From: Methanosarcina sp. DH2
GTDB taxonomy: Archaea; Halobacteriota; Methanosarcinia; Methanosarcinales; Methanosarcinaceae
Assembly: GCF_020804225.1 (NCBI RefSeq)
Contig: NZ_WJBI01000004.1
Location: forward strand, 1-64,000
DNA: 64,000 nt
Direction of reading: 5' to 3'
Part shown: one piece after another, positions 50,971-52,414 of the stretch
Position numbering within the stretch: the stretch's first letter is position 1
Layout: the number at the start of each line of letters is the position of its first letter
Position numbers and translations under genes: made by a program
Notes under the pieces: generated by a model
Databases searched by the model: none
The model's input: only the letters and a program-made list of their open reading frames with translations
What the model was told of the DNA's origin: nothing

Positions 50971-51104
50971 CTGGTACGTGCTTTTCCGTCCGGATTGAAA
51001 GGTTGCTGTAAAAAATATCTGGATCAGGGATTATTTTTTAACTTCTTTAGCCTGATTTTGTGTGCCCGTACTTTTAAGCTGTAGTTTACACAATATATCA
51101 TTAC

Positions 51105-51116
51105 TTTTATATATAA
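51105..51116 (+). promoter_or_regulatory. TATA box of candidate sRNA 1
   Basis: TTTTATATATAA, centred 26 bp before the 5' stem at 51136, the spacing expected between TATA and transcript start in archaea. Confidence 0.65.
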
Positions 51117-51135
51117 GAGCTTATATTATTAGATT

Positions 51136-51240
51136 GGCGTCTGAGAAACTGTGTTCTACAGGAAGATCCCTTCTCCAGATATTCCCCAGATCAGATTTCC
51201 CAAATCAGATGCCTGTTCATGCCACATTCTTTTATTTTTT
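51136..51240 (+). ncRNA. Candidate small RNA, copy 1 of a tandem pair
   Basis: The predicted transcript starts with GGCGTCTGA (51136-51144), which pairs with TCAGATGCC (51205-51213, one G-U). This is followed by a T-rich tail (CTTTTATTTTTTTC, to about 51240). The enclosed ~60 nt is pyrimidine-rich and includes TTCTCC and TTCCCC, able to pair with SD sequences. No coding frame is supported. Copy 2 is 420 bp downstream with the same promoter and 5' stem. Confidence 0.6.
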
Positions 51241-51534
51241 TCATCTTTTTATTCTTGCTAATTTCCGTTATCTCTCTGTTACTCATTATTATCTTTTCCT
51301 TAGTTTTGGATATGATTTTTGTCTCCATTTTGCTTCTATTCTGGCATTTAGCTCGGGCACTTTACCTTCCAGTGACTAATTACTCTACTCACTAGAAATC
51401 TCACAGGGGACACTTAAATAAATCCGAGATATCCTCTGAATTCGAGATACTCCTGTGATAACTTATTAGAATAATTAGAGTAGAATAATAAGAGTACTTC
51501 AAAAAAGTCCTGAAATCTATCAGCATATCATCAA

Positions 51535-51544
51535 TTTTATATAT
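51535..51544 (+). promoter_or_regulatory. TATA box of candidate sRNA 2
   Basis: TTTTATATAT, centred 27 bp before 51567. The segment between TATA and stem is similar to copy 1. Confidence 0.65.
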
Positions 51545-51566
51545 GATCTTTTATATTTGTAGAATC

Positions 51567-51700
51567 GGGCATCTGAGAACACATATCTTTTCTTATTGCA
51601 AACCTCAGCCAATTCTTTTACCTCCCAATTCCCACACCCCCAACACTCGGATGCCCTATCCCCCAATACATTTATAGATTATCCTGTGCCCTTTTCCGTT
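51567..51700 (+). ncRNA. Candidate small RNA, copy 2 of a tandem pair
   Basis: GGGCATCTGAG (51567-51577) pairs with CTCGGATGCCC (51646-51656) over 11 bp with one U-G. Compared with copy 1 the stem sequence changes on both arms while pairing is kept. The interior is unstructured and C-rich (ACCTCCC, ACACCCCC), with an exact anti-SD core CCTCC. The 3' end is uncertain, between 51656 and about 51710. Confidence 0.6.
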
Positions 51701-51835
51701 CTGGTTTCTCCATTCGTAGCCTGCTTTTTCTTCCTCGAGCTTGCCTGTGACTCTTCCATAAAACAAATAAAAGAGTATAAAAATATTCCTTGAAGAAACA
51801 AAACAGCGGTTGAAAATGAGTTTTTCAGATAACAC

Positions 51836-52102: not shown

Positions 52103-52159
52103 AGCTCACTCCTATTCCGCAAAATTAGTCCTCTTGAGCGAAACGAAGTGGAGCGAAAA

Positions 52160-52318
52160 GGACTGCGTACTCCCGAGGCGCAATTCGGGGCGAAGAGGAC
52201 TGCGTACTCCCGAGGCGCAATTCGGGGCGAAGAGGACTGCGTACTCCCGAGGCGCAATTCGGAGCGAAGAGGACTGCGTACTCCCGAGGCGCAATTCGGG
52301 CGAGGCGCAATTCGAGTG
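52160..52318. repeat. 37-bp GC-rich tandem repeat
   Basis: Three full copies and one partial copy of a 37-bp unit (starting GGACTGCGTACTCCCGAGGC), 52160-52300, then a degenerate end. Over 60 percent GC in an AT-rich gap. Units are directly adjacent, with no spacers. Contains inverted parts (GCGCAATTCG/CGAATTGCGC-like). AGTCCT at 52127 and AGGACT at 52159 may form a hairpin at the edge. Confidence 0.85.
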
Positions 52319-52414
52319 CCGAAGAATATGAGAAAAAATGTAAAAATATGAAAAATAAGTTCCGGGAATTTAACTCCCATAGAGAACAAATTAAAATCAG
52401 AATTCTTAAAAATA

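Follow-up and report, generated by a model that had tools for sequence, protein, structure and literature searches.

Two units with paired ends, each led by a TATA box, occupy positions 51105-51700 of the window, the whole 64,000-nt stretch of Methanosarcina sp. DH2 analyzed here. Unit 1 (51135-51214) and unit 2 (51567-51656) both lie on the + strand, in an intergenic stretch of about 1.6 kb bounded on one side by a ribokinase-like/diphthamide-synthase gene pair and on the other by a convergent purE. The terminal helix of unit 1 is 9 bp long with one G-U pair, and that of unit 2 is 11 bp long with one U-G pair; re-examination of the sequence reproduced the coordinates, stem lengths and wobble pairs that a sequence-only reading of the same DNA had given for the two TATA-led units. 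The features are as follows:

51105-51116, + strand: TATA box of unit 1, TTTTATATATAA, recognized from the sequence; it starts at -29 in 4 of 4 type A genes of the genus.
51135-51214, + strand: unit 1, predicted lasso sRNA of type A (paired core); covariance model match of 46.7 bits (model R1).
51136-51144, + strand: 5' strand of the unit 1 closing helix, GGCGTCTGA (RNA GGCGUCUGA), pairing with 51205-51213, with covariation.
51169-51179, + strand: conserved core of unit 1, CCUUCUCCAGA, anti-SD-like, identical in 7 of 7 type A sequences from two genera.
51205-51213, + strand: 3' strand of the unit 1 closing helix, TCAGATGCC (RNA UCAGAUGCC), partner of 51136-51144.
51215-51260, + strand: tail of unit 1, conserved GTTCATGCCACATTC and then a T-rich stretch, kept in relatives; probably the 3' end region, within which termination would fall.
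51493-51527, + strand: upstream element of unit 2, AGTACTTC-N20-CAGCATA, present in 25 of 28 type B genes (position about -74) and also in types C and C'.
51535-51544, + strand: TATA box of unit 2, TTTTATATAT; a TATA match of at least 7/8 is present in 28 of 28 type B genes.
51567-51656, + strand: unit 2, predicted lasso sRNA of type B (paired core); covariance model match of 73.3 bits (model R1).
51567-51577, + strand: 5' strand of the unit 2 closing helix, GGGCATCTGAG (RNA GGGCAUCUGAG), pairing with 51646-51656.
51597-51607, + strand: unit 2 segment UGCAAACCUCA, the equivalent of consensus UGUAAACCUCA, complementary to the cdhD ribosome-binding site.
51615-51625, + strand: unit 2 segment CUUUUACCUCC, for which pairing is possible with GGAGGUAAA of the cdhA ribosome-binding site.
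51646-51656, + strand: 3' strand of the unit 2 closing helix, CTCGGATGCCC (RNA CUCGGAUGCCC), partner of 51567-51577.
51657-51720, + strand: 3' flank of unit 2, UAUCCCCC and what follows, then T-tracts, with similarity to relatives reaching about 51719; probably the rest of the transcript and its presumed end.

The TATA box of unit 1 is also aligned in a second genus, and the T-rich tail that had been noticed after this unit is a real feature, conserved in relatives. Farther downstream, between unit 2 and purE (52130-52320), a unit of about 40 bp (GAGGCGCAATTCGGGGCGAAGAGGACTGCGTACTCCC) is present in tandem copies; similar text is found upstream of the type B gene of another genome (G001).

Both units belong to a wider family. 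In a DNA similarity search, unit 1 with its promoter showed 87% identity over 164 nt in G001 (E 5.8e-52), and unit 2 matched at least 20 other Methanosarcina genomes (best E 2.2e-43). When named genomes were scanned for a TATA box followed by GGCRTCTG ... CRGAYGCC, this pattern returned 43 stretches, nearly all from Methanosarcina or Methanosarcinaceae; the exceptions outside this family look like chance matches in coding sequence or lie on a probably mis-binned contig. With a covariance model built from 56 sequences, members were found in 31 of 31 Methanosarcina genomes, at 2-11 matches each. Strong members are also present in genera g4 and g5 of the same taxonomic family, and single weaker ones in g11. 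Weak matches in other families (E of about 1e-4 to 1e-2) mostly disappeared with a second model and were not counted. The stem conservation in related genomes on which the first reading had staked its proposal, and for which it had suggested a covariance search, is thus found throughout the genus. Its view of a small RNA family with paired ends and anti-SD interiors stands, while the notion of a two-copy family does not: the family is larger and older, and the genome itself (G000) holds about 7 strong members (contig C28 at 51135, 51567, 92065, 93152 and 94033; contig C7 at 63275 and 67054). No Rfam 15 model matched at its gathering threshold in the window, nor at E<=1 over 51000-51760, and a search for tRNA and tmRNA found none. 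The family is absent from Rfam and appears to be previously unrecognized.

Clustering of the loops divided the members into types A (unit 1), B (unit 2), C/C', D, F/E and H, with synteny in A, B, C, F and H but only partly in D. Type B is syntenic throughout the genus and in genus g5. Where the diphthamide-synthase gene and purE are both visible in the flanks, type B is placed between them in most genomes, and it adjoins one or both of them in nearly all cases with visible neighbours; the exception is a divergent member (L114 13147) within a cluster of genes for a GNAT acetyltransferase and a carboxymuconolactone-decarboxylase-like protein (CMD). Type A is conserved in three other Methanosarcina genomes and beyond: it stands beside B in G001, G027 and the present genome, alone in G007, and upstream of B in genus g5. 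In G001 the type A and B genes appear to be located at 1,642,192 and 1,643,046. Since the A-B order and the invariant core CCUUCUCCAGA are both kept in genus g5, the tandem must be old. Types F/E, C/C' and H cluster with the GNAT and CMD genes, and the order F-GNAT-C-CMD-H, in which sRNA and protein genes alternate, is kept in several genomes.

Such a cluster can be seen elsewhere in the present genome, at C28 92065-94112 (L105 4066-6113), where three further members, F, C' and H, alternate with two protein genes, one of the GNAT type and one carboxymuconolactone-decarboxylase-like. On C7 (63275-67142, L106), two type D members are separated by 3.8 kb and enclose the gene for an 800-aa protein that has an ATPase-like region; a SprT-like metalloprotease gene often occurs about 2 kb from type D.

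The closing helix, GGGCAUCUGAG/CUCAGAUGCCC in the family, covaries. Among 102 distinct sequences found by the model, 97% of helix cells are paired, and two-sided changes occur in 7 of 10 pairs and in 45 cells, which agrees with the earlier remark that pairing persists where the stem bases of the two copies differ. The covariation score was reached by 0 of 500 shuffles, and controls with the strands slid against each other pair in only 16-42% of cells. Sequences entered the first alignment (A1) partly by virtue of their stem sequence, so its invariant core should not be over-read. Outside the genus, the stem core changes in step, to AGGCAUGUGG/CCACAUGCCU (L275), AGGUAUGUGA/UCACAUACCU (L276) and GGGCAUCCGG/CCGGAUGCCC (L291).

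C-rich, lasso-like sequences with a GAGCGGG/CCCGCUC stem were also observed as weak matches (L134, L285, L296 and, in shorter form, L277), in Methanosarcina, in genus g4 and in another family of the order. They are suggestive of a possible sister RNA family.

The loops enclosed by the helix average 4.3% G and 36.4% C, and with so little G and so much C most of them fold only at their ends. The loop of unit 2 follows this pattern; type A, including unit 1, departs from it in having 14-17% G and a degree of inner pairing. G-poverty is not distinctive by itself, as 36 such 60-mers occur in 464 kb on both strands. The loops carry conserved anti-Shine-Dalgarno segments that are specific to each paralog.

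The promoter is equally regular. In 100 of the 102 members the TATA box begins about 30 nt ahead of the RNA, and a TATA box at this distance upstream of a covarying terminal helix, by which the family is defined, is present in both units. A second element at about -74, AGTACTKC-N20-GCAGTATA, is found in 25 of 28 type B genes, in all C', in most C and in only some F. In seven whole genomes the exact AGTACT element with its spacing is nearly exclusive to lasso sRNA genes, which points to joint control of some family members; the element is a candidate operator for a common regulator of types B, C and C'.

Acetyl-CoA decarbonylase/synthase (ACDS) makes or splits acetyl-CoA. The enzyme's operon was identified by Pfam and comprises Prismane/CODH alpha, epsilon, CdhC, a ParA-like ATPase and two CdhD-family proteins, whose genes were named cdhD and cdhE by their order in the operon. 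It was chosen for the target test since reviews report that the M. mazei sRNA41 masks ribosome-binding sites in polycistronic ACDS mRNAs (Buddeweg et al. 2018, as described in passages of PMC5867862 and PMC6560208). The 16S rRNA of relatives ends in GGATCACCTCC, so that initiation of the SD type applies. The cdhD site reads exactly GGTGAGGTTTACATGG in 25 of 31 genomes, and the proteins checked downstream of it start with MAKK.KLS, as does the Pfam-confirmed cdhD of the present genome; the cdhE site is nearly invariant. Short cdhD-like frames of 71-101 aa with the start region AAAGTGAGGTTTACATG were also seen away from the ACDS operon (L230, L231, L233) and are apparently remnants or paralogs of cdhD.

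The type B consensus UGUAAACCUCA is an exact 11-bp complement of the cdhD ribosome-binding site UGAGGUUUACAUG and ranks among the top two windows of the type B loop for conservation. In a comparison of 27 type B members, from which the divergent L114 was excluded, pairing with the invariant cdhD site is retained in 291 of 297 cells, and 8 of 14 substitutions keep it as G-U. In unit 2 itself, a C-A mismatch within the 11-mer leaves 8 contiguous pairs with cdhD. By duplex energy, cdhD is only the 16th target of unit 2. The cdhA site holds rank 17 of 374 for this unit, in a ranking made over 374 ribosome-binding sites from parts of the genome. On the same list, cdhE takes rank 1 of 374 for the type F member of this genome, and cdhD, with a 9-bp match, takes rank 6 for type C'. 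Median p values against shuffles are modest for 42 type-by-site pairs tested, at 0.015 for B-cdhD and 0.033 for F-cdhE. Coverage of the cdhD ribosome-binding site by the type B loop segment is supported, by conservation and the prior from the literature and not by energy alone, and the pairings F-cdhE and C'-cdhD are suggestive.

These results refine the earlier proposal of repression by SD pairing through CCTCC. Such repression is plausible, given that conserved loop segments match particular sites, above all that of cdhD, but CCTCC is not the conserved element: this motif is indeed present in unit 2 (51615-51625), yet it is peculiar to the present genome, and relatives read CCCCC there. The target prediction that had been recommended gave matches for type B with cdhD and type F with cdhE, and no convincing one for type A, to which unit 1 belongs. 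Searches of gene-start sites across genomes gave no consistent target for types A, D and H.

Several specific candidates were discarded. Type H was considered as an antisense RNA to a single gene start (GGTGGATATGAGTTTG), but the exact sites turned out to be the type H loops themselves, with no shared gene. Matches to an extended type B target, TTGGYTGAGGT...ATG, were scattered and had no gene in common. For the type A target CTGGAGAAGG...ATG, the candidates were inconsistent across genomes; they include an XRE-like regulator (G000 and G007) and a sensor-like protein (G001).

The best explanation, to which we assign a probability of roughly 0.6, is that both units are natural paired-termini antisense sRNAs that would mask ribosome-binding sites of ACDS and other genes. 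Each unit would be a trans-acting sRNA gene transcribed from its own TATA box, as its conservation strongly suggests, and the RNA would start at the 5' strand of the closing helix, with the first G of GGCAUCUG. The terminal helix, supported by covariation, would tie the ends of the RNA together, and the loop of about 50-70 nt, mostly G-poor and C-rich and predicted to be largely single-stranded in most types, would show one or more anti-Shine-Dalgarno segments, different in each paralog. Unit 2 most likely pairs UGUAAACCUCA with UGAGGUUUACA, the cdhD site of the polycistronic ACDS mRNA, and would block translation there; type F/E most likely blocks the neighbouring cdhE site likewise. In unit 1, the core CCUUCUCCAGA should cover a candidate site reading UCUGGAGAAGG. 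Repression of translation, in response to whatever physiological signal may govern it, is proposed on the model of sRNA41 and of engineered paired-termini antisense RNAs.

The known systems resemble the family to different degrees. Like sRNA41, an intergenic sRNA of Methanosarcina that acts on ACDS sites, types B and F are complementary to the cdhD and cdhE sites; the complementarity to ACDS-operon ribosome-binding sites that characterizes sRNA41 is thus found in the type B consensus (11 bp) and in type F. For sRNA41, compared here by its published description, lower abundance under nitrogen limitation is reported, and the passages on it describe no multi-paralog family with a closing helix. 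One of the lasso types may be sRNA41. Equating it with type B calls for caution, since one genome (G009) has two copies of the cdhD site but no type B match, with F, C' and H present. Two other trans-acting sRNAs of M. mazei, sRNA154 and sRNA162, also occlude ribosome-binding sites (passages of PMC5867862, PMC3510493 and PMC6560208). As described there, neither fits a terminal helix around a C-rich loop: sRNA162, encoded next to MM2441/MM2442 and with sRNA171 as a homolog, is a 191-nt RNA that contains three stem-loops and a linker, whereas sRNA154 uses two stem-loops for its action and also contains a 20-aa ORF. Paired-termini antisense RNAs have been made artificially (Nakashima, Tamura and Good 2006, as cited in PMC6114898), with antisense to a ribosome-binding site placed between stabilizing paired ends. 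The build and the proposed mode are the same, with a terminal helix enclosing antisense to a ribosome-binding site; the artificial RNAs, however, were engineered for E. coli, form no natural family and are not homologous, and common descent is not claimed.

Other readings of the two units must be weighed. They could be real sRNAs that act mainly as a scaffold or sponge for proteins, such as an Sm-like protein at U-runs or a binder of C-rich RNA, with pairing to ribosome-binding sites secondary. A constant helix, a CUUUU motif and C-rich loops do recur across paralogs whose loops otherwise differ, and over all ribosome-binding sites the affinity of the loops is hardly above that of shuffled loops (z of about 0 to 2.4). 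Conserved blocks specific to each paralog would not be expected of a pure sponge, however, and the type B block coincides with the cdhD site, including changes that keep G-U pairs; we consider this reading unlikely. Rather improbable, too, is a role as broad anti-SD RNAs of low specificity, which would damp many mRNAs when abundant and have no single main target. Several anti-SD stretches per RNA, and the many sites that score like those of ACDS, would fit such a role, but conservation in type B peaks in an extended block of 11-14 nt, whereas the generic CCUCC/CCCCC runs vary.

MITE-like DNA elements would share with the family the inverted-repeat ends, the several copies per genome and the occurrence of type D at several places in one genome. 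Such elements should be dispersed and non-syntenic, yet the units keep orthologous positions in different genomes and in two genera, the TATA box stands at a fixed distance outside the repeat, the loop is strand-asymmetric (G 4%, C 36%) and the helix pairs covary, so that this origin is very improbable. Least credible are leaders or small ORFs of protein-coding genes: the 105-aa GTG frame that overlaps unit 1 is interrupted by stops in relatives, in line with the earlier judgement that no ORF is supported, T-rich stretches follow the units, and unit 2 faces the convergent purE.

The reading as natural paired-termini antisense sRNAs may be extended, more tentatively and with the odds somewhat against it, to a modular system of the Methanosarcinales, in which a constant helix would carry exchangeable anti-RBS loops. 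Paralogs, many of them led by AGTACT, might jointly silence the ACDS genes and other mRNAs, and the GAGCGGG/CCCGCUC lassos would carry the same principle into other families of the order. Very few trans-acting sRNAs of archaea have known targets. If the main reading is true, a covarying, syntenic family of many paralogs that is not in Rfam and follows a simple anti-RBS logic would provide a testable rule for the choice of sRNA targets in methanogens, with a predicted target, ACDS, in the central pathway from acetate to methane, and nature would have its own equivalent of an engineered silencing design.
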